From a virus: 64,000 nucleotides of DNA. Both the position numbers and the translations under genes were made by a program. The notes beneath the pieces were generated by a model. It did not search any database, was not told where the DNA came from, and saw only the letters and a list, made by a program, of their open reading frames with translations. The DNA is taken from positions 61,974-125,973 of IMG/VR virus record IMGVR_UViG_3300037010_001382; one strand, written 5' to 3'. The number at the start of each line of letters is the position of its first letter. Position 1 is the first letter of the stretch. Shown one piece after another: positions 21,001-62,358 of the stretch.

Positions 21001-24000
21001 AAACATCAACCTTTCAGGATGACTCATCTCAGCAACAGTTTTATTATCTTCACCTGTTCTGTTATCAATGCGACCTTGTATATAACTTGGTTTTAATGTC
21101 TTAGAAGCAATACGCTTGTCACCATCAAATAAGATGCTATTTAAATAAATAGAACCTTGTCTAAATGGTTGTGCCATATGAGGCAATCTCTGTAAGAAAT
21201 TGTCCTTAGAAGTAGAATTGTTCAAATCATTACTGATAGTATGAACAAAGTTAGGACCTACTTCTTGTGATTGTTGTTTGTTATCTATATTATAAAATGT
21301 AGATTCTGCTTCACCTGAAGCCTTAAGATACAATTCAGCTAATGTTCTTAAACGACCAGCAACCTTAAGATTACCAGCAGTGATTTCATTAACATTTATT
21401 TTACCTAAATTGTCAAATAATGCACGAGTTGCTGTTACAAACTTATCAAGATCTGATTCAGACTGATTAGCTTCTTTAACAGTAGACAACTTATCTCTAA
21501 GATCTCTAGTGAAATCTATACCAAGACTATTCAAGAACTCAATTTGATTAGTAATTGCTTCTTCTTTATCTTTACTACTAATCTTTACATCACCATAAGC
21601 ATCCTTGAAACGATCACCATTAAATGTATATTGACCTTCTTCACCAGGAACATTACTCTCTTGTATAGGACTTCCTTTCTCACCAACTGTACCCTTAAGA
21701 GTATCAAGCCATATAGCTACTCTCTTAATTGTAGAAGCATTTAAGTTCTGTGGAGAGAAATTGGTATTATTATCTTCATGTATGTACATAGTAATAGCTT
21801 CTGGACGTTGCTTTCCAAATACATTATTGAATGCAGCTCTAATTTTAACTTCATCTCCTGACCAAACATCTTTCATCTGACCAAGACGTTCTACTACCTT
21901 AACGATATTAGGATCGAATTTAGCCATAAATTCAAGATGCTCCATCTTTTCTGGAAGTGTATTAAACTCTGTAAGTTCAGAACGTACATAGTTTACTAAC
22001 TTACTAAAATTAACAGGTATAGGCATATTAGTAGAAGGATCAAGTTTCTCACGTAATACCTGAGTTACATTACCTTCTTCATCTACTTCATCAACCCACT
22101 TTTGTTCAACAATAGTAGAGAATAACAACTTCATAGAAGCTGACATACTCTTATTATTATCAACACTGAATACGTCTTGGAAATCTCTATTATTAGCTAC
22201 TTCTGTTTCGTTTTCAGAATCATGTTTAATGCCCATTCCCTTAAGATACTCCTTAACAAGAGAATCTTTATTAGTTGCAATTTCATCCCAGTGAGCATCA
22301 ATGTTATTCCACATTCTCAGATGTTGTTCATACTGATCCTGAGTGATAAGATTGTCCTGATATTGTGATTCTATAGAATTAGGATCTGATTCTTCATAAG
22401 ATAAAGGATATTCCTTCCCTTCTGTATCCCATCCTACATTTACGAAGTCACTCTTCATTCTTCTACGTACTGTCTCTAGTAGATCTTTAGCGTTATATTT
22501 CTTAACATCAAATTCTATTAGCGACTTAGAATCAGCAAATAATTGCTGAATAAGACGTGAAGTTACACCTTTAACAACCATTGAACTATCTTGTATAGAT
22601 AATGGCCCTATTGTCATTTTTCTTGCTTCGCCTGTACCTGTATATTCATTCAGACGAGGAGCTGTTTTATAATAACCTATATTGATATTCTTGAAGTAAT
22701 TCTTAATACTACCATCAAATAATCCTTTTACAAAGTTTACAAAATCTTCGAACATTCTTGCAATGAAATTAGACTTAGTACTCTTAGGAGCTGAATAAAA
22801 TTTGTTATCAAGTACATAATGACCTAATTCTTCTGCAAGTTGTTCTTTCAGTTCATAATCTGAAGCATCAGCATATTTAATAATACGATCATCTTCATGA
22901 TGGCGGAATTCACCCTTTCTAGATCTGAATTCTTCCATTATCTGAGCACGCTCTTTAGCAGCTGTAAATGAAGCCCATATACCTTCAAATGCTTCATGTT
23001 CAATAGTACCACGCTTAGCATTTTCATACCATTCAGCATGTGTACCAACGTATTGACCAAATGCAAGTCCACCATCTGTAAGTTTTATAATTGTCTTAAG
23101 ACGTTCTCCAGGAAATGGAACATTAGCATTAAACCAAGCTTCTGACGTACCTATATCATGTAGAGCAAATTCTAATTCATTAGAGTTCATTCTACGTGCA
23201 TTACCTTTATTACCACCACCTCTACGCTTTGCAGGAGCAGCAGGTTTTGGTTCTTCTTCTTTTGCTTTATCTGATTCTTCTACTTTAGCTGCAACTTGTG
23301 CATCTTCTGCAGGAGTATTAGATACTTTTTTAGCTTGTTCAGCCATATTAAGTTCATATTGACCTATCATTGTGGTCATGAACTTTTCTACTTTCTCTTG
23401 TAAACTCTTTACTGTTTCATCTGGTCCTGCAGATACGAGTTGTAGCATTACAGGTACAGCAACAGGATTAGTAGGATTTTGTAAATTATGCATCAGATTC
23501 TTCATATCTTCAGCGTTAATTACAACCTTACCATCTTCTATTTTATACTTTAATTTAGTATTGTTCAAATCAAGAACAGGAGCACTAAATTCTTTTTCAG
23601 CAACAATAGCAGGATCTTTAGTAGCTTCTGGTTTCTTTGTAGCAGCAGCTTCTTTAGCACTCTTAACAAACATATAGCTACCTTCTTCTTTATTACGAAG
23701 CTTAGCATAACGTCCTTGCATATTAGTTGAATATTCACCTTGTCCCTTCATATTAACAGAAGTTCTAAAAGGAATTTCATCTACATGTCTTTGTTCTTTA
23801 TCGTTACCATTTCTTAAATCATAATGATCAGACAAGAGATAATGCTGATAAGTTTTCCATTCACGTGTTTGAATAGTTATTTTACCTTTATCATCTGCTT
23901 TTGTGTACATTTCTTGAAATGGTTCATTTGCAATAAGTAAACCACTATTTGCATTTGTATACAATTCAGCAAGACGAGCTTTGAATTCAGCTATTTGATT

Positions 24001-25434
24001 ATTTGGATTATCTTCGTTAAAAGTTTCTTCTGTAAATGGAAATCTATAAGGATAACCTGCTTTATTTTCACCTATCAGTAATTCACTACCTTTAAGATAT
24101 AACTGATTCTTATTACCTCTAAAGTCCTTACCTGTTGATCTAGGATCATTAGTACGACCATAATAAATAACACCTTGTAAATATTGTGTTAATTTAGTAA
24201 GTTGATCTTTAAATGAGTCTCTTTCAGCTTTTTGTTTCTCATCTGTAGTTTTAAAACTAATACCATGAATATCATCAAATAATTTAGCAGATTGTTTCAG
24301 AATATGAAACATGTCTTCTACTTGTGTTGTTGATAATTTACGGTTATTTAAGAATTGTAATGTACCGCCTTGTTCCAAATAAACAGCACCCACTTTAGCA
24401 GGTATATTCTCACCTTGATGAGTAATACCTGATGGATCTGTTGCTATCTTAACAAGACCTAAGTCATATAAGTCACCTCTTTCGACAAGAGACCCTACAG
24501 TGGGATTTTGTTTCCACTTAGTTGGATCTTTAGGATCTGGAGTTCTTTTTGGATGACCACGCGATACATCAAAATTAAATAATATTGGTTGTGTACCATC
24601 ATTAGCTAACATTTCTGCTCTCTTACCTTTCCACTGATCTATATATTGCTTTTGTTCAGCTTCAGTTGTACCTGCTGGAAATCTACTTCTACCTGTCCTA
24701 ACAGATGTTGGAGAAGGAGTTGGTAATGTATTGATAACCAAATCATGTGCTGTAGGATTCTCTATACGTTCTCCTTTTACATTCAGGAAATGATATTTAC
24801 CTTTAGGATTACCTTGTCCATTATTATGAGTAGGATCCCATTCTACAGCAACTGTAGCAATAGTTTTGTCATCAGGATTAGTCTGATCATAAGCACGTCT
24901 ATCAGGAGTACCAGTCTCTTCTAATTCTTTCTCTGAAGTATTAATATTCAGAAAATCAATTAGAGAATGTTGACCATATTCTCCTGCAAGTGTACCTTGC
25001 CATACTTTATCAAGTCCTAATTTAGCAACATTGTTAGATGTCACTACAAGCATTTGTAAAGAAGAATTTTCTCTTCCTTTCTGCTTAAGCATAGTACTTC
25101 TAATCTGATTGAAATTACTAAAGAACTGCTGCGTTCTAGCTACACGACTTTCATCAAATGCACTAGTTGGAGGAGTTATAGTACTACCAAATACAAAAGG
25201 AGCAGGCTTGAGTTTACCATTTTCTTCTATATCAATCTGCCTTTCAAGTCTAGATAAAGGTTCAGAAATAGCACGTTTTGCGATCACTTCTTTAAACTTA
25301 TCTAATAACTTCTCAGCTTCCTCTATAGTAGGTATTTTCTCGTCATTTAATTTAAATGCAGCTAACGCTTCACCTTTACCAAACTTCTCAATCAAATCCT
25401 TATATTCTTGTAAATTCTTGTTGGGACAACCCAT
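15070..25434 (-). CDS. giant crAss-like virion DNA-dependent RNA polymerase / polyprotein, 3454 aa
   Basis: One uninterrupted 10.4-kb gene. Residues 2267-2271 are DFDVD within KAGSDFDVDKLN, the metal-binding motif of the double-psi beta-barrel RNA polymerases of crAss-like phages and YonO-type enzymes. Shortly before it, FRIPTQEMNSLEAFVIKGFLP matches in pattern the RQPTLHR region of the beta' family. Such enzymes are carried in the virion and transcribe early genes after injection (known for the family; inferred here). Around residue 813, HEAFE followed by a QLAEELGHYVL segment resembles a zincin-like polyvalent-protein domain with the second His replaced by Glu. A low-complexity Ala/Pro/Lys linker with RRGGGNKGNARR lies just before it, near residue 745. 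The length suggests several fused domains and possible proteolytic maturation. Confidence 0.85.
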   Translation of the reverse strand: MGCPNKNLQEYKDLIEKFGKGEALAAFKLNDEKIPTIEEAEKLLDKFKEVIAKRAISEPLSRLERQIDIEENGKLKPAPFVFGSTITPPTSAFDESRVARTQQFFSNFNQIRSTMLKQKGRENSSLQMLVVTSNNVAKLGLDKVWQGTLAGEYGQHSLIDFLNINTSEKELEETGTPDRRAYDQTNPDDKTIATVAVEWDPTHNNGQGNPKGKYHFLNVKGERIENPTAHDLVINTLPTPSPTSVRTGRSRFPAGTTEAEQKQYIDQWKGKRAEMLANDGTQPILFNFDVSRGHPKRTPDPKDPTKWKQNPTVGSLVERGDLYDLGLVKIATDPSGITHQGENIPAKVGAVYLEQGGTLQFLNNRKLSTTQVEDMFHILKQSAKLFDDIHGISFKTTDEKQKAERDSFKDQLTKLTQYLQGVIYYGRTNDPRSTGKDFRGNKNQLYLKGSELLIGENKAGYPYRFPFTEETFNEDNPNNQIAEFKARLAELYTNANSGLLIANEPFQEMYTKADDKGKITIQTREWKTYQHYLLSDHYDLRNGNDKEQRHVDEIPFRTSVNMKGQGEYSTNMQGRYAKLRNKEEGSYMFVKSAKEAAATKKPEATKDPAIVAEKEFSAPVLDLNNTKLKYKIEDGKVVINAEDMKNLMHNLQNPTNPVAVPVMLQLVSAGPDETVKSLQEKVEKFMTTMIGQYELNMAEQAKKVSNTPAEDAQVAAKVEESDKAKEEEPKPAAPAKRRGGGNKGNARRMNSNELEFALHDIGTSEAWFNANVPFPGERLKTIIKLTDGGLAFGQYVGTHAEWYENAKRGTIEHEAFEGIWASFTAAKERAQIMEEFRSRKGEFRHHEDDRIIKYADASDYELKEQLAEELGHYVLDNKFYSAPKSTKSNFIARMFEDFVNFVKGLFDGSIKNYFKNINIGYYKTAPRLNEYTGTGEARKMTIGPLSIQDSSMVVKGVTSRLIQQLFADSKSLIEFDVKKYNAKDLLETVRRRMKSDFVNVGWDTEGKEYPLSYEESDPNSIESQYQDNLITQDQYEQHLRMWNNIDAHWDEIATNKDSLVKEYLKGMGIKHDSENETEVANNRDFQDVFSVDNNKSMSASMKLLFSTIVEQKWVDEVDEEGNVTQVLREKLDPSTNMPIPVNFSKLVNYVRSELTEFNTLPEKMEHLEFMAKFDPNIVKVVERLGQMKDVWSGDEVKIRAAFNNVFGKQRPEAITMYIHEDNNTNFSPQNLNASTIKRVAIWLDTLKGTVGEKGSPIQESNVPGEEGQYTFNGDRFKDAYGDVKISSKDKEEAITNQIEFLNSLGIDFTRDLRDKLSTVKEANQSESDLDKFVTATRALFDNLGKINVNEITAGNLKVAGRLRTLAELYLKASGEAESTFYNIDNKQQSQEVGPNFVHTISNDLNNSTSKDNFLQRLPHMAQPFRQGSIYLNSILFDGDKRIASKTLKPSYIQGRIDNRTGEDNKTVAEMSHPERLMFEINANLSKLYYILVPADSKTEWTLKMEHIVPWKSFHEEGVNDTIYDIFNNYYQVEKGIATGIDGKIDPKYKSLMHDLAGGYADENLNKDEFIKKLDDDADVMLQYLVKAGSITKAEGSEYYRIKNFNMEFVASNELQRKDKNALFTEDNLKKLLKFRNTNYMINNIEMFKIYFGDVAAIKDPLKRIKSFMSPRETMIYDDPKFNNTLNETLNKIKVGKTLELTNDLESGQDEVVDKVITLREGDYGYRKYTDVLKTVNFRDQDVVQVSHGANSFVGITEDARLLAGNAKAREILQDAYKSINPTDGSGFITLTGHREIVYKSGRGTIAHDKMYDYVLAKDRQLMYQDGHLQTEDANAKNYYRPEIKAYDEKRIKKMNVDRTLNILKPIYSGVDQTGNLVLDKYSLAPMTYEIVRGTPLEKLFLHMVEEGVHYAVADSGRKIGKNKLHDIYNEDGTLNEESPKDNTRNDLSFKYLGIQTETAGNHHDNSFGTQASTLVNLNTFDNAAPTDFDKKIGDWRKLSEADKIKHSERYRKFDHNCNLLKAMQDHGYTELLKKLGIVDNAETGGGFSIPRENMPKIEALLREELLRRDVSQNLKDALSFNEESGTWNTPLEAISNYKQIKDIIFSYVDKSIAKPKQNGGPKIMIPGIMVGSVNGKEIRTVQVKDKDGNYTGQSRLVSDGLKFYEAEYYPEGHKKAGQRKSVSRMEVIITSEVPKQMRSHERWKDATDEEIMLHLNENPELLHGIGFRIPTQEMNSLEAFVIKGFLPEYMGDSIVVPEAITAKAGSDFDVDKLNTYLKNVYLDKDGNAKAVPYLGTGEAALSQFREIATELKKTLKQEEVSKDVIDLPSEEMTEEEVEALENANASEAEKIESYAQKLYKQSLQNAYYDSLSEMILDPENYERLVKPNNAELLKGISKMLEKLAPNEFTADKTGSVLDPMFMSEARHAFITGKQDLSIAANNQKNHSINQLAQVVIEPLFKSRLSKIEQTFIGDTKILLPHNKTTVNYTYRWNAQAGALEKVPFEQGRALPTFSGVTDNKKQVISDNISQGIDGYADVAKGAWIMNIIQHHMISSTYFTMLKMGIDPETAGLFTNQPIIREFVKMLAKNDSTFMLKRVDSTERRSLFDMFPVDIPNRTAVEKKAWSINMQKAINERMKEGFDNPQFLGALPENIRSFYKDGQLSSKEKNLEQHAILQEFLKYKVISDHMFVMQEASTWDTKSMAEPNMQLRKRDIVEKARTSIIISSIDELLQANHLENLMKHVGQSSVAINESMFKIGHPIVRTYVKGILNMLPSRMSGDNYQRAAQAVEENLISFLVQNSDLNALSRKEYEGVTDKRYNERIHELLIDKKTSISARIKQLRKDLKNDSNSDIANSLFLKRLVVKTKKNVADIKNIFLSSKPTDSFSIDVLTDAMREFRDSTIPLKYKDLYNDILIASFLQSGLANSDISFGKYMPAEDYAKIVSPAINELVDNNGKVNSEEMLQKFYDSKDFFRNKWQDKKIVPQEKEIWDMNEDGSGKSKYRVSPDIAEVFKSIRERANESWSVPYAEKTAKTVNEYHPVADLKINSEEEESTKKVIGRKRAETAIKGNRITSEDHPKLKLMVHETEDGQFAVINDKTGREISRGATKKEAVDNATKIINKTGNTTKKTIGLTKRDMYDPNDKVEFAYRPYQDYIPFKLPLDNLSAQYDFITLHAESISNAIARSQDLDPVVKDPSYFLQKVRGKDGKEFTIQEGGQEWYLYVPISTKGDGRLLEEHTPDSPMSVLRTDGYQVPAEIPHSAIIEGIQEFYDDMREYHESLKKQGVTDEEGNFQELDEDGFLKPKENLVEPEKSGNFVEPDNTPKNVEVTVKKDDKSDWSLSVTPTGQVYNKTTGDQLDPVKDKKLINKALLKSGFLPHKLVEAKNGIKYAVTNDGRIFTMAESNMGAELSADSGIRKDVLEKYEKLIGNKDPNKVEPDGLPPIDLTEENNC

Positions 25435-55822: not shown

Positions 55823-57850
55823 TTAAAATAGTCTACGCTTTCCTTTTGAAAATAGATTACTTCCACCTCCAAATAATGTATTACCGATCTTTCGTTTTTT
55901 ACTGAATAATTCTGCTAATCTTCCATCCTCTTCGCCTGAAGATGCCTTTAGGATAGGATCAAGATGCATTGCTAAAGCTATTGCTAACTCAGCAGCTATC
56001 ACTCGGTCAAAGTTATCATCATCATTAAATTTAGATATTTCTTCAAGTAACATAATATCTCTTACTTGATACACACCTAATACTTCTCTAATAACAGACC
56101 CTTCTTCATCTTTCTCTATTGATAGTTTCTGATTAAGATATGTTTTAAGACAACCATGTAGATGCTCACGTATTCTTTCTGCAGATCGATGTATACCAAA
56201 CTCACGATTAACCTGAGTAGTAGGAACTATCTCCTTCAACCAACCTGGCTGCTTCTCAAGATATCTTGAGTCGCCTTGAGCCTTCATGTATTCAATGAAT
56301 GACATTTCATCATTCTCACAAAGTGTGCGAGCGTTGTAGAACTTGATAAGCAATCTAGCTTGTTCGTTCCACTTGTCTTTGTCTTCTGGGCGAGCCACAT
56401 AAGAAGCAACAAACGTATCTTGAAATTCTTCACCGAGTATATTATGAATTCGTTTATAAATATATACACTTCCAAGTGAATCTGAAAACGCTGAATTGGC
56501 TTGACGGTAAGGATCGACTCCTGCAACATACAGTCCAAATGGTGGACTCTTTATTGGGAACTCCCATACAATAATAGGAGCATCCTTATCGTCAGATGGC
56601 TTAGCTGGATAATGACTAATTGCTTTCTTGTCTACAAATTCATGTTTAATAGTATCTCCATCATGATATAAGAAAATACTAGATCCTTCAATATTATTAT
56701 CAAATAATCTTTGCTGTTGAGCTTTTGCAGCTCTAGCATTAAATATATTATTTGATTGAGTTAGGAAACATTCCTCTTCACTAAGAGGATAATACATTAT
56801 GGCCTTGAGATACTTAGTCTGATCAGGGTCACTTTTAAGTAACTCTCTTTCTTGTTTGATAGTTCTCTCTGCTAATTCTTTATCAGCAACAAGGATAATT
56901 ATCTTATTAAGTTCATCTGAAGATTTCTCTATTCGACCTTCTTGTTGTAAGTAATCTCCTAGTCCAATAGGATGCTTAAAATCTTGTCTATAAACACCAG
57001 ACATAAATAAACATGTCTCTTTACCAGCAGCATTCTTAAACGCTAAGAATTTATTAGCTGTAGGACTATAAAATAGATTTTCAGCATCTTTACCTTTATC
57101 AAATGAACCACCTGTACCAACTAAGATAGGTATAGCACGCCATCCCATAGGAGATAAGAATGCTGGTTTAGCAGCTTCGAATGCAGACGCAAAAGGGTAC
57201 TTACCAACCTCATCCATTATATAGGACTTAGCGGTAGTACCTGCTGCAGTTTCTGTATTCTTACCATCATCAGCATTACGAATAATAATAGAAGACCAAA
57301 TCTGATCTTCACCACTCTTAAGCTTAAACCCTAAATTGATCTTAGAACCTCTCCATGTTTTGTCTAGACGTGGAATAGCAATGCCTTCCCATAAACGTTT
57401 AAGACCAAAATCTATCTTATCTTTCAATAGACCTAGATCCGCATCATTACCACCTACAATAACATTCTGAGAATCCTTAAACATGATAGCATTATATGCA
57501 CAGAAAGATGCTTCAAGCTCTGATTTACCTCCCTGACGTAATCCTATCTCTAGGTAACCTAATTGATCTATTCTACATTGTTCTAATGCAAGAGCACGAA
57601 TCAATTCATTATCTCTCAAGTCTGGTAAAGAAACTATACGACCAATATTACCATGATCGTCTTTCTTATCCACACGAATGTACCAGTGATTGGTATGCCA
57701 ATAGAGCCATCCAGGTATATGAAAGCCATCGATGGTAACACCACCCATACATCTTTCAATTTCTATATTTACTAGCTCATCGAAATCTTTAGTACCTTTT
57801 GGAGGCAAATTCTTTCTATTCTTGAAGAGCTGATCTACTGTTATATTCAT
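55823..57850 (-). CDS. terL: terminase large subunit
   Basis: 675-aa packaging motor and nuclease. Walker A is GLRQGGKS (residues 103-110); Walker B with catalytic Glu is SYIMDEVG (209-216). The RNase H-like nuclease has VAGVDPYRQ with its metal-binding Asp near residue 442 and further acidic residues in ENDEMSFIEYM. It cuts and pumps phage DNA into the prohead through the portal. It overlaps the upstream 105-aa gene by one base and ends 2 nt before the portal gene. Confidence 0.93.
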   Translation of the reverse strand: MNITVDQLFKNRKNLPPKGTKDFDELVNIEIERCMGGVTIDGFHIPGWLYWHTNHWYIRVDKKDDHGNIGRIVSLPDLRDNELIRALALEQCRIDQLGYLEIGLRQGGKSELEASFCAYNAIMFKDSQNVIVGGNDADLGLLKDKIDFGLKRLWEGIAIPRLDKTWRGSKINLGFKLKSGEDQIWSSIIIRNADDGKNTETAAGTTAKSYIMDEVGKYPFASAFEAAKPAFLSPMGWRAIPILVGTGGSFDKGKDAENLFYSPTANKFLAFKNAAGKETCLFMSGVYRQDFKHPIGLGDYLQQEGRIEKSSDELNKIIILVADKELAERTIKQERELLKSDPDQTKYLKAIMYYPLSEEECFLTQSNNIFNARAAKAQQQRLFDNNIEGSSIFLYHDGDTIKHEFVDKKAISHYPAKPSDDKDAPIIVWEFPIKSPPFGLYVAGVDPYRQANSAFSDSLGSVYIYKRIHNILGEEFQDTFVASYVARPEDKDKWNEQARLLIKFYNARTLCENDEMSFIEYMKAQGDSRYLEKQPGWLKEIVPTTQVNREFGIHRSAERIREHLHGCLKTYLNQKLSIEKDEEGSVIREVLGVYQVRDIMLLEEISKFNDDDNFDRVIAAELAIALAMHLDPILKASSGEEDGRLAELFSKKRKIGNTLFGGGSNLFSKGKRRLF

Positions 57851-60309: not shown

Positions 60310-60335
60310 TAAAAAAAGACAGCACAAGGCTGTCT
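60310..60335 (-). terminator. intrinsic terminator of the tRNA cluster
   Basis: AGACAGC (60317-60323) / GCTGTCT (60329-60335), 7 bp, 5-nt loop, followed on the minus strand by T7-8 (60317-60310). It ends the tRNA transcript after tRNA-Gln. Confidence 0.9.
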
Positions 60336-60344
60336 AATTAAAAG

Positions 60345-60415
60345 TAGTTCTACCAGGACTCGAACCTAGAATAAGGGAGTCAAAGGCCCTTGTGTTACCA
60401 TTACACCATAGAACT
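60345..60415 (-). tRNA. tRNA-Gln (TTG)
   Basis: Minus strand, 71 nt. Acceptor AGTTCTA/TAGAACT, anticodon loop CTTTGAC with TTG at 34-36, T loop TTCGAGT, discriminator A. The 31-39 pair is mismatched. Last tRNA before the terminator. Confidence 0.85.
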
Positions 60416-60424
60416 ATATATGTG

Positions 60425-60496
60425 TGGAGAAGAAAGGAATTGAACCTTCTACGCAAGCCTCTTCAGAGCTTCACTCTACCGATGAGCTACATCTCC
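60425..60496 (-). tRNA. tRNA-Phe (GAA)
   Basis: Minus strand, 72 nt. Acceptor GGAGATG/CTTCTCC has a T-T mismatch at pair 6. D stem GCTC/GAGT, anticodon loop CTGAAGA (GAA), anticodon stem AAGCT/GGCTT, T stem GAAGG/CCTTT, discriminator A. Confidence 0.85.
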
Positions 60497-60501
60497 AGTA
60501 G

Positions 60502-60574
60502 CAGTCCATACGAGATTCGAACTCGCTCCGCCGACCGTGACAAGGTGGCATCTTAACCATTTGACCTATGGACT
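60502..60574 (-). tRNA. tRNA-Asp (GTC)
   Basis: Minus strand, 73 nt. Acceptor AGTCCAT/ATGGACT, anticodon loop TTGTCAC (GTC), T loop TTCGAAT, discriminator G as usual for Asp. The 28-42 position is a C-C mismatch in the anticodon stem. Confidence 0.85.
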
Positions 60575-60620: not shown

Positions 60621-60697
60621 GTCTAGGTAACCGGATTCGAACCGATGAACACTCGCTTCCAATGCGAGGAAGTATAGCCATCTGCATGACACCTAGA
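60621..60697 (-). tRNA. tRNA-Pro (TGG)
   Basis: Minus strand, 77 nt. Acceptor TCTAGGT/ACCTAGA, anticodon stem CTCGC/GCGAG, loop ATTGGAA (TGG), T stem ATCGG/CCGGT. The D arm folds poorly. Flanked upstream by a terminator-like hairpin. Confidence 0.8.
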
Positions 60698-60701
60698 TAT
60701 A

Positions 60702-60737
60702 ATAAAAATCCCTCTAACAAATAAATGCTAGAGGGAT
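60702..60737 (-). terminator. terminator-like hairpin between tRNAs
   Basis: Minus strand ATCCCTCTA (60737-60729) / TAGAGGGAT (60716-60708), 9 bp, 12-nt loop, then TTTTTAT. It may stop part of the transcripts after the initiator tRNA, giving different levels of the five tRNAs. Confidence 0.75.
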
Positions 60738-60779
60738 AGTTGGAACTTTAAAGAAACGTTCACATTACAACATACCCTC

Positions 60780-60836
60780 TCCCTTATCAGGTTGATCCTG
60801 AAATATGCAAGGGAAAAAAGTAAAAGTAAAAGTAAT
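60780..60836 (-). other. hairpin with repeated TTACTTTT tract (candidate small RNA)
   Basis: TCCCTT (60780-60785) / AAGGGA (60809-60814) outer stem, inner TCAGG/CCTGA at 60787-60801, and three TACTTTT repeats at 60816-60836. It follows the initiator tRNA in the same transcript, with a terminator-like hairpin downstream at 60702. No gene is present between 60698 and 60859. Confidence 0.4.
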
Positions 60837-60859
60837 GTTTGTCATTTGTATGTTTGTTG

Positions 60860-60931
60860 TAGCGAGACTGGAGATCGAACCCAGGACCTTCGGGTTATGA
60901 GCCCAACGAGCTACCGCTGCTCCACCTCGCG
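60860..60931 (-). tRNA. initiator tRNA-fMet (CAT)
   Basis: Minus strand, 72 nt. First tRNA of the cluster, just behind its own promoter. Initiator features: C1 opposite U72 (no Watson-Crick pair at the end of CGCGAGG/TCTCGCT), three G-C pairs GGG/CCC at the base of the anticodon loop (TTGGG CTCATAA CCCGA), and an A11-U24 pair in GAGC/GCTC. It closely resembles bacterial tRNA-fMet. Phage initiator tRNAs are uncommon. Confidence 0.9.
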
Positions 60932-60941
60932 ATATATTTTA

Positions 60942-60972
60942 CAAAGGTAAATCAATTATTTGATATTACCAA
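60942..60972 (-). promoter_or_regulatory. Bacteroidota-type promoter of the tRNA cluster
   Basis: Minus strand TTG (60972-60970) in AATTTGGTAA, 20-nt spacer, TACCTTTG (60949-60942). The -7 box ends 11 nt before the tRNA-fMet 5' end, so transcription starts almost at the tRNA. Confidence 0.9.
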
Positions 60973-61060
60973 ATTTATTTTTAATTATTTTTAAAGAGGG
61001 ATTACTTGGTAGATTTAGAGTAGCACGTCTTCATGTACCAAGGTTCCTTTATGTCAGTAC

Positions 61061-61384
61061 TTACTTAATCTTCATTACAGGCTCTGGTTCACTCATCATT
61101 AAATATGTATCTAACATGAAAACCAATTTCTTTCCTGAGAAAGGTGAGAACATCACTCTATCTCCTGCTGCTAACGTTTTACATTCAGGTCCTACAGATA
61201 CGATTGTGCCAGTAGGTGGTTCTATATCTTCCATTCTTTGTAAACCATCACCATTATTTGTAATCTGTTTACCTGATGCTGTAACTAACCCACCTGTAGT
61301 AACGATCTCATGTACTGCTACTGGATCTGGTTTAATCAATATTCTATTTCCTAGTAATTCTATTTGTTCTATTCGTATGTTCAT
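61061..61384 (-). CDS. GroES-like co-chaperonin, 107 aa
   Basis: Short GroES-type protein. The N terminus LLGNRILIKPDPVAVHEIVTT resembles the start of GroES (I/VKP). The middle TGTIVSVGPECKTLAAGDRV and FSPFSGKKL correspond to the GroES core and roof, and the C terminus is EPEPVMKI. It is about 10 residues longer than GroES. T4 gp31-type phage co-chaperonins let GroEL fold capsid proteins; a similar capsid-folding role is expected. No GroEL is seen here, so it would use the host GroEL. Last of the PhoH operon. Confidence 0.8.
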   Translation of the reverse strand: MNIRIEQIELLGNRILIKPDPVAVHEIVTTGGLVTASGKQITNNGDGLQRMEDIEPPTGTIVSVGPECKTLAAGDRVMFSPFSGKKLVFMLDTYLMMSEPEPVMKIK

Positions 61385-61388
61385 TATC

Positions 61389-61562
61389 TTACATTAATAT
61401 TTTTAAACTACTCTCAACATATTGCTCTTTCATTTTTGCCATATCAATTATTAATACATGACCAATATCTTTACTTAGAGCTTCTATCATTTCTTCTTTA
61501 ACTATATTATATGCTTTTTGTTTCTCAATCATATCAGTATATATTTCATTTACATTACGCAT
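61389..61562 (-). CDS. hypothetical protein, 57 aa
   Basis: Short helical frame starting at the ATG at 61562, overlapping the end of the PhoH gene by 8 nt and ending 4 nt before the co-chaperonin gene. Product MRNVNEIYTDMIEKQKA onward is amphipathic, with many Lys/Glu and Ile/Met. Coupled overlap on one side supports a real gene. Function unknown. Confidence 0.6.
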   Translation of the reverse strand: MRNVNEIYTDMIEKQKAYNIVKEEMIEALSKDIGHVLIIDMAKMKEQYVESSLKILM

Positions 61563-62358
61563 TTTTTCTATTTGGTGTTAGTTCTCCTGCTTGTTCAAGA
61601 GTATCATAATTCTTAAGTATTAATTTTACCATATCATCTCTCATGTTATCATCTTCTGTAAATTCAAACTGAGCTACATTAGGAACACCTGTTAGAATCT
61701 TCTTTAGAACATTTACAGCTACATACTTCTTAGCAATGTCATTCTGTTTGATATCACCACAAAAGATAAACTTAGCATTCTTCTTTCCTATACGCGTCAC
61801 AATAGCCATTAAAGTCTTAATGTCGAAGCTCTGAAACTCATCTATGATAACTATTGAGTTTTTAATTGTACGTCCTCTAACAAACTGTGAAGCCTTATAC
61901 TGAAGCTCTTTAGCACTAACCATGTCATGAATTGTTTTATCATCTACAAGATCTTCAAATACATCATTAAAGTTCTCCATGTAAACAGCTAGCTTTTCTT
62001 CTACTGTACCAGGAGTAAATCCTAATTCTGAATCACCCACTATCTCTGTAGGTTTTGTTATGATAATCTTATTATAATCCTTTGTATCAGCAAACAATTT
62101 AAGAGCTGCATAAGCAGCACAAAATGTCTTAGCTGTACCTGCTGGACCTGTAATTACCGTAACCTTATTTTCATTAATTAACTTAACAACTTCTTTTTGT
62201 TTAGGTGTTAATTTAATATCATCATTGAAATTTATAAAAATTGCATTAGACACATCTTCCTGATTACTAAAAGCATTATAAAAAGGATACTGCTTTCTCT
62301 TATCTTCTTCTTGTTCTAACTGTACGTACTTTGAAACTTTCTGTTTACTTCTACCCAT
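61555..62358 (-). CDS. phoH: PhoH-like ATPase
   Basis: 267-aa P-loop ATPase of the PhoH family, common in phages and predicted to act on RNA or in stress and nucleotide metabolism. Walker A GPAGTAKT at residues 71-78, Walker B with VIIDEFQSF near 173, and a CGDIKQND motif further on, typical for PhoH. N-terminal charged extension of about 40 residues. It overlaps the 61-aa gene upstream (8 nt) and the 57-aa gene downstream (8 nt). Exact substrate unknown for this phage. Confidence 0.85.
   Translation of the reverse strand: MGRSKQKVSKYVQLEQEEDKRKQYPFYNAFSNQEDVSNAIFINFNDDIKLTPKQKEVVKLINENKVTVITGPAGTAKTFCAAYAALKLFADTKDYNKIIITKPTEIVGDSELGFTPGTVEEKLAVYMENFNDVFEDLVDDKTIHDMVSAKELQYKASQFVRGRTIKNSIVIIDEFQSFDIKTLMAIVTRIGKKNAKFIFCGDIKQNDIAKKYVAVNVLKKILTGVPNVAQFEFTEDDNMRDDMVKLILKNYDTLEQAGELTPNRKNA

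Follow-up and report, generated by a model that had tools for sequence, protein, structure and literature searches.

An initiator tRNA gene behind a Bacteroidota-type promoter heads the tRNA array of a crAss-like phage

Introduction

Why would a phage carry a tRNA that serves only to start proteins? Phage tRNAs are commonly put down to codon usage or to resistance against anticodon nucleases, and initiation is a rate-limiting step of translation. The question arises from a 64,000-nucleotide stretch of viral DNA (the window; bases 61974-125973 of a 125,973-base IMG/VR virus record), in which an earlier note, made from the sequence alone, had described an initiator tRNA gene with its own promoter at the head of a tRNA cluster. 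We have asked what this gene is, where it came from, how it would be expressed and what the phage may gain from it.

Results

Judged by its genes, the record is that of a bacterial virus and a distant relative of crAssphage: the terminase large subunit (TerL), portal and major head protein genes lie in that order and all match crAss-type families (phrog), and TerL is 36.5% identical to that of phage Lbo-JY46, 31% to that of Cellulophaga phi4:1 and 22-28% to those of Crassvirales records (tblastn). The listed host of Lbo-JY46 (L133, PP438436.1), whose TerL is crAss-like, is cyanobacterial (Leptolyngbya). An IMG/VR search with the single TerL protein returned no relative; a TerL alignment search of the same collection returned 80. 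Two features, the promoter type and the likeness of the tRNA, point to a Bacteroidota host. The 126-kb record holds 12 tRNA genes, among which tRNA-fMet is the sole Met tRNA; the tRNA at L010:3986-4059 (record position 23986-24059) has an anticodon loop of six bases, and no amino acid is assigned to it. The features of the locus are listed in Table 1.

Table 1. Features of the tRNA locus and of related RNAs in other phages; positions are those of the window unless a locus is named.
Feature	Position	Strand	Basis
Bacteroidota (sigma-ABfr type) promoter, TTTG-N20-TACCTTTG	60942..60973	-	exact match; spacer-20 enrichment in record
10-nt stretch between -7 element and tRNA-fMet; probable transcription start and short leader	60932..60941	-	sequence
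Initiator tRNA-fMet gene (CAU), CCA not encoded	60860..60931	-	ARAGORN, Rfam RF00005, marks read from fold
Structured RNA: outer stem, middle stem with 5' bulge, apical hairpin, small hairpin	60742..60838	-	fold z-scores
AGAGGG, possible antiterminator strand, complementary to terminator 5' arm	60775..60780	-	nascent-RNA fold
Intrinsic terminator, 12-bp stem and T-run, between fMet and tRNA-Pro	60708..60737	-	
tRNA-Pro (UGG)	60621..60696	-	ARAGORN
tRNA-Asp (GUC)	60501..60574	-	ARAGORN
tRNA-Phe (GAA)	60424..60496	-	ARAGORN
tRNA-Gln (UUG)	60344..60415	-	ARAGORN
Terminator closing tRNA array	60317..60335	-	
TerL, crAss-like; used for finding relatives	55823..57850	-	phrog_6681 E = 5e-84, tblastn
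tRNA-like RNA, examples	L310:2411-2473, L344:2410-2469, L355:2413-2469, L141:18264-18324	+	
tRNA-like RNA, then start of initiator tRNA	L350:1866-1924 and 1927; L353:385-443 and 446; L371:2333-2391 and 2394		

ARAGORN, with which the earlier note had proposed to check the gene, calls a tRNA-Met(CAT) on the minus strand at 60859-60931, and the Rfam tRNA model RF00005 agrees (50.5 bits, cut-off 29, E = 1.6e-8). The RNA reads, 5' to 3', CGCGAGG UG GAGC AGCGGUA GCUC G UUGGG CUCAUAA CCCGA AGGUC CUGGG UUCGAUC UCCAG UCUCGC U A. Bacterial initiators are marked by the absence of a 1-72 pair, by a purine 11 - pyrimidine 24 pair and by three G:C pairs at 29-31/39-41; for an elongator tRNA-Met, Y11-R24 and a paired acceptor end are expected. 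All three initiator marks, which the earlier note had named, are present in the fold: C1 and U72 form no Watson-Crick pair, A11-U24 lies in the D-stem GAGC/GCUC as a purine-pyrimidine pair, and in the anticodon arm UUGGG-CUCAUAA-CCCGA the pairs G29-31:C39-41 stand as three consecutive G:C pairs beside the CAU loop. These marks rule out an elongator tRNA-Met or a tRNA-Ile2, the assignments that the earlier note had held would overturn its reading, and the fold confirms that 60860-60931 encodes an intact and genuine bacterial-type initiator tRNA. The discriminator is A73 and no CCA is encoded; the T stem has G53-U61 where G53-C61 is usual, which may weaken the tRNA slightly.

The consensus of the Bacteroidota primary sigma factor consists of TTTG near -33 and TANNTTTG near -7 (PMC7366714). 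An exact match, with a spacer of 20, lies at 60973-60942 and ends 10 nt before the tRNA, and because TTTG-N20-TANNTTTG is enriched across the record at this spacer (19 occurrences, vs 0-4 at any other length between 10 and 30), the phage does use this class of promoter. A scan for the E. coli sigma-70 promoter found 26 sites vs 29 expected from shuffles, none of them just upstream of tRNA-fMet. The promoter that had been proposed for the gene is thus an exact match, although of the Bacteroidota type rather than sigma-70.

The position ascribed to the gene also holds, as tRNA-fMet heads an array of five tRNAs read leftwards, in the order fMet, Pro, Asp, Phe, Gln (ARAGORN). A GroES-like (Cpn10) gene (61061-61384, minus strand) and a PhoH-like gene (61555-62358, minus strand) lie directly upstream of the array. 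The Pro, Asp, Phe and Gln tRNAs show no full promoter match of their own, and since a terminator separates them from tRNA-fMet, it is plausible that the latter is the most abundant phage tRNA, as had been claimed without this reason.

For the origin of the gene, we compared it with initiator tRNAs from 395 genomes of the phylum to which a Chitinophagaceae MAG belongs; a first, over-strict pattern gave zero matches. The nearest cellular initiators, L271 and L268, are each identical to the phage tRNA at 66/72 positions (92%), with a short D loop common to all, and the best phage relative, that of L157, at 61/75. Because these Chitinophagales-like cellular genes are closer than the gene of any relative phage, capture from a Bacteroidota host is likely. 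L271 also has C1xU72, a mismatch that is ordinary among Bacteroidota initiators, and the anticodon arm is identical to that of L268. Among the nearest cellular genes, several stand alone as single-gene units, each with a similar promoter 3-12 nt before the tRNA and a terminator immediately after it, which suggests, as the simplest reading, that the gene was captured together with its promoter.

Phage-borne initiator tRNAs are already known, recurrent in the relatives of this phage and common in phages generally. They are present in phi4:1, Bohxovirus, L143, L151, L157, L162, L167 and others; 220 phage records match the tRNA by blastn, and a pattern scan of IMG/VR gave many initiator-type matches, some of which, among the matches listed, are host genes beside prophages. 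The statement of the earlier note that most phage tRNA-Met genes are elongators did not hold in the relatives' loci, many of them retrieved via a neighbouring gene, where at least 13 distinct initiator-type tRNAs were counted vs 5 clear elongators. Among 206 non-redundant tRNAs of Bacteroidota-type phages, a promoter lies directly upstream of 7/24 initiators vs 0/182 other tRNAs, five of these 7 belonging to a group of loci (L469-L475) that had been selected for the promoter; without this group the figures are 2/18 and 0/120 (p = 0.016). The four records of L469-L475 that were tested show no TerL similarity, and since promoters lie directly before the initiators in this unrelated-looking group as well, the arrangement probably arose more than once. 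Many relatives' loci, partial contigs among them, have no detectable initiator tRNA, which argues that it is not essential in the lineage. A search of the whole records of 27 relatives with the 72-nt tRNA gave no match, with a sensitivity so low that the known initiators of L353 and L354 were missed.

Some of these initiators vary in the anticodon arm. Those at L151:17928, L300:2406 and L302:1084 have the loop UUCAUAC, in which C32 is replaced by U and A38 by C, vs the cellular CUCAUAA, and in those at L143:14842, L162:15576, L350:1927, L372:2393 and L134:4349 one of the three anticodon-stem G:C pairs is A:U. In L094, L095 and L109 (also L087 and L113), a host-type tRNA-fMet with a Bacteroidota promoter lies near the edge of the viral contig; these are probably prophages integrated at the host gene.

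Downstream of the major capsid gene, before the gene that follows, many relatives carry an RNA of 46-63 nt that resembles a tRNA and has no D arm. Its parts are an acceptor-like stem of 7 bp, a single hairpin that varies and a hairpin like a T arm, whose loop is mostly UUCRAU. The RNA covaries, with changes on both sides in 18/18 pairs. A model from 23 sequences detects it in 55/58 loci of one set, including loci outside the model such as L320 and L352, and also matches eight loci of the TerL set; it has no match in the window. In a search of six loci, among them five in which the model detects this RNA, Rfam gave no match at its position. In L350, L353, L354, L371 and L372 it stands 2-3 nt ahead of a complete initiator tRNA, an arrangement that resembles a tandem tRNA transcript, and in L143, L151 and L162 the slot holds only an initiator tRNA. 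Processing of the late mRNA by RNase P/Z at this RNA would be our guess. HNH-endonuclease-like reading frames lie between it and the next gene in L146, L149, L159, L320, L326 and L350.

The interval between tRNA-fMet and tRNA-Pro, of about 160 nt and ending in the 12-bp terminator, is itself structured: its fold has z = -5.6, lower than 100/100 control windows of the same strand. L157, whose TerL is 50% identical to that of the window phage, keeps the order promoter, fMet, structured RNA, terminator and tRNA array; its interval has z = -5.7, and its alignment with that of the window phage is better than those of 2000 shuffled pairs. In the predicted fold of both nascent RNAs, the RNA made before the terminator 3' arm pairs the terminator 5' arm upstream, a duplex that was reached by 16/500 shuffles for the window and 3/500 for L157, and a mutually exclusive terminator and antiterminator are predicted in these two sequences. 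Such alternative pairings suggest an attenuator. It is conceivable, and we propose it tentatively, that the array is an attenuated operon, in which fMet would always be made and Pro, Asp, Phe and Gln only when 60742-60838 flips the terminator into the antiterminator. The absence of full promoter matches before these four tRNAs, the terminator in front of them, the fold of the interval, its conservation in L157, the upstream pairing and a sub-threshold resemblance to the Rfam PyrR attenuator are all consistent with this. However, two sequences are too few for covariation, the shared signal comes partly from the terminator itself (z = -2.4 without it in the window, -3.7 in L157), the PyrR-binding hexaloop is absent, and the same interval could be an sRNA or a decaying spacer with a leaky terminator.

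The PyrR attenuator proper (RF00515) was rejected, with 31 bits vs a cut-off of 54 and the loop GAUCAA in place of the binding hexaloop. The RNA behind fMet in L471 has no unusual fold (z = -1.7), and an IMG/VR pattern scan for the structured RNA gave 71 places, with tRNAs nearby only at that of L157. The broader proposal, that the window phage and L157 both have a tRNA operon led by a constitutively made initiator tRNA, with the other members gated by a cis-acting RNA switch that lies between it and the next tRNA, is one that we regard as doubtful; we found no such arrangement described for phages, and the possible switch is the less ordinary part of the locus. If the RNA is a switch, phages could regulate parts of one tRNA array separately.

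Discussion

What, then, would the phage do with this gene? We consider it likely that a crAss-like phage of a Bacteroidota host carries here a host-derived initiator tRNA which leads an array of five tRNAs, has a host-type promoter of its own and feeds the pool used for initiation. The tRNA would be transcribed from that promoter as the first gene of the array and matured by RNase P and the host CCA-adding enzyme; host MetRS would charge it and the host formyltransferase would formylate it, a dependence on host enzymes that we infer since searches of the record for MetRS, formyltransferase and deformylase found none of them. Late in infection, when tRNA supply from the host chromosome may have ceased or host tRNA-fMet may be depleted, the tRNA would then join the pool that initiates phage mRNAs, to the presumed benefit of the phage. 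It may raise initiation, or replace a host tRNA under attack, as the earlier note had suggested. T5 and SP15 overexpress tRNA-Tyr from a strong promoter, from which the unmutated tRNA-Tyr of E. coli is effective as well (PMC11555353). By analogy, the best-supported mechanism is that the phage supplies initiator tRNA from a promoter dedicated to it, and it is plausible that this supplements host tRNA-fMet.

A more specific reading is that of counter-defence, in which the initiator tRNA of infected cells would be degraded by a host nuclease, VapC-like or of another kind, and the phage would supply tRNA-fMet for that very reason. Enteric bacteria and Leptospira have VapC toxins that cleave initiator tRNA, according to work cited in PMC10264068; a retron that depletes tRNA-Tyr is overcome when an unmutated tRNA is supplied from a strong promoter (PMC11555353); and in our phage set a promoter directly before a tRNA is seen only for initiators. 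However, the resistance proposed for phage tRNAs is a mutation, relative to the host tRNA, at the cleavage site in the anticodon loop (PMC10264068), and no such mutation is found in the phage anticodon arm when compared with L268, which is the nearest cellular gene and not necessarily that of the host. Since the loop is unmutated, nothing points to nuclease resistance; a nuclease cutting the loop CUCAUAA in the host tRNA would likely cut that of the phage too. In addition, the RNA ligase PF09414 was not found in the record (a search for the PF09511 ligase matched neither the record nor any control, so that it carries no information), and Shigella phages generally avoid tRNA-fMet, the VapC target (PMC10264068). 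We therefore hold counter-defence to be rather unlikely.

It is quite improbable that the gene is a neutral passenger, recently captured from a host with its promoter and kept without function. Its close identity to cellular genes (92%) and its sporadic presence among relatives would fit such a history, but the fold is intact with all initiator marks kept, L157 has the same layout despite the divergence of its TerL, and initiators are carried repeatedly across lineages. That the tRNA is a remnant of an attachment site, as might be thought from the Bacteroidota prophages that appear at the host tRNA-fMet gene (L094, L095, L109), is extremely improbable, since the gene is complete and heads a tRNA array, and the tyrosine integrase PF00589, which was matched in 14/14 control genomes, was not found in the record.

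An initiator tRNA that is unmutated and host-like, has its own promoter and recurs in Bacteroidota phages is not well explained by either codon usage or nuclease resistance, and points to the supply of initiator tRNA as a phage strategy. The comparison with known systems shows both similarities and differences: (i) The tRNA-Met genes of Mycobacterium, Caulobacter and Prevotella Lak phages and of Cellulophaga phi4:1 also match this initiator tRNA; in phi4:1, a distant relative by TerL, the initiator-like tRNA nonetheless sits in the middle of an array and lacks the Bacteroidota promoter. (ii) T5 and SP15 (PMC11555353) resemble our phage in having a tRNA with its own promoter, although there it is an elongator, tRNA-Tyr, tested in phages of E. 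coli, whereas here it is an initiator behind a Bacteroidota promoter, as known from the sequence. (iii) The RNA behind tRNA-fMet resembles the PyrR attenuator in its predicted order of anti-antiterminator, antiterminator and terminator, but the binding loop is not kept and no pyr genes were noted near the phage element. (iv) A further parallel is provided by the solo initiator genes of Chitinophagales-like cells (L271-L280), with which the phage shares not only a tRNA up to 92% identical but also the type of promoter and its spacing; in these cells the terminator comes right after the tRNA, whereas in the phage about 120 nt of RNA follow and then more tRNAs.
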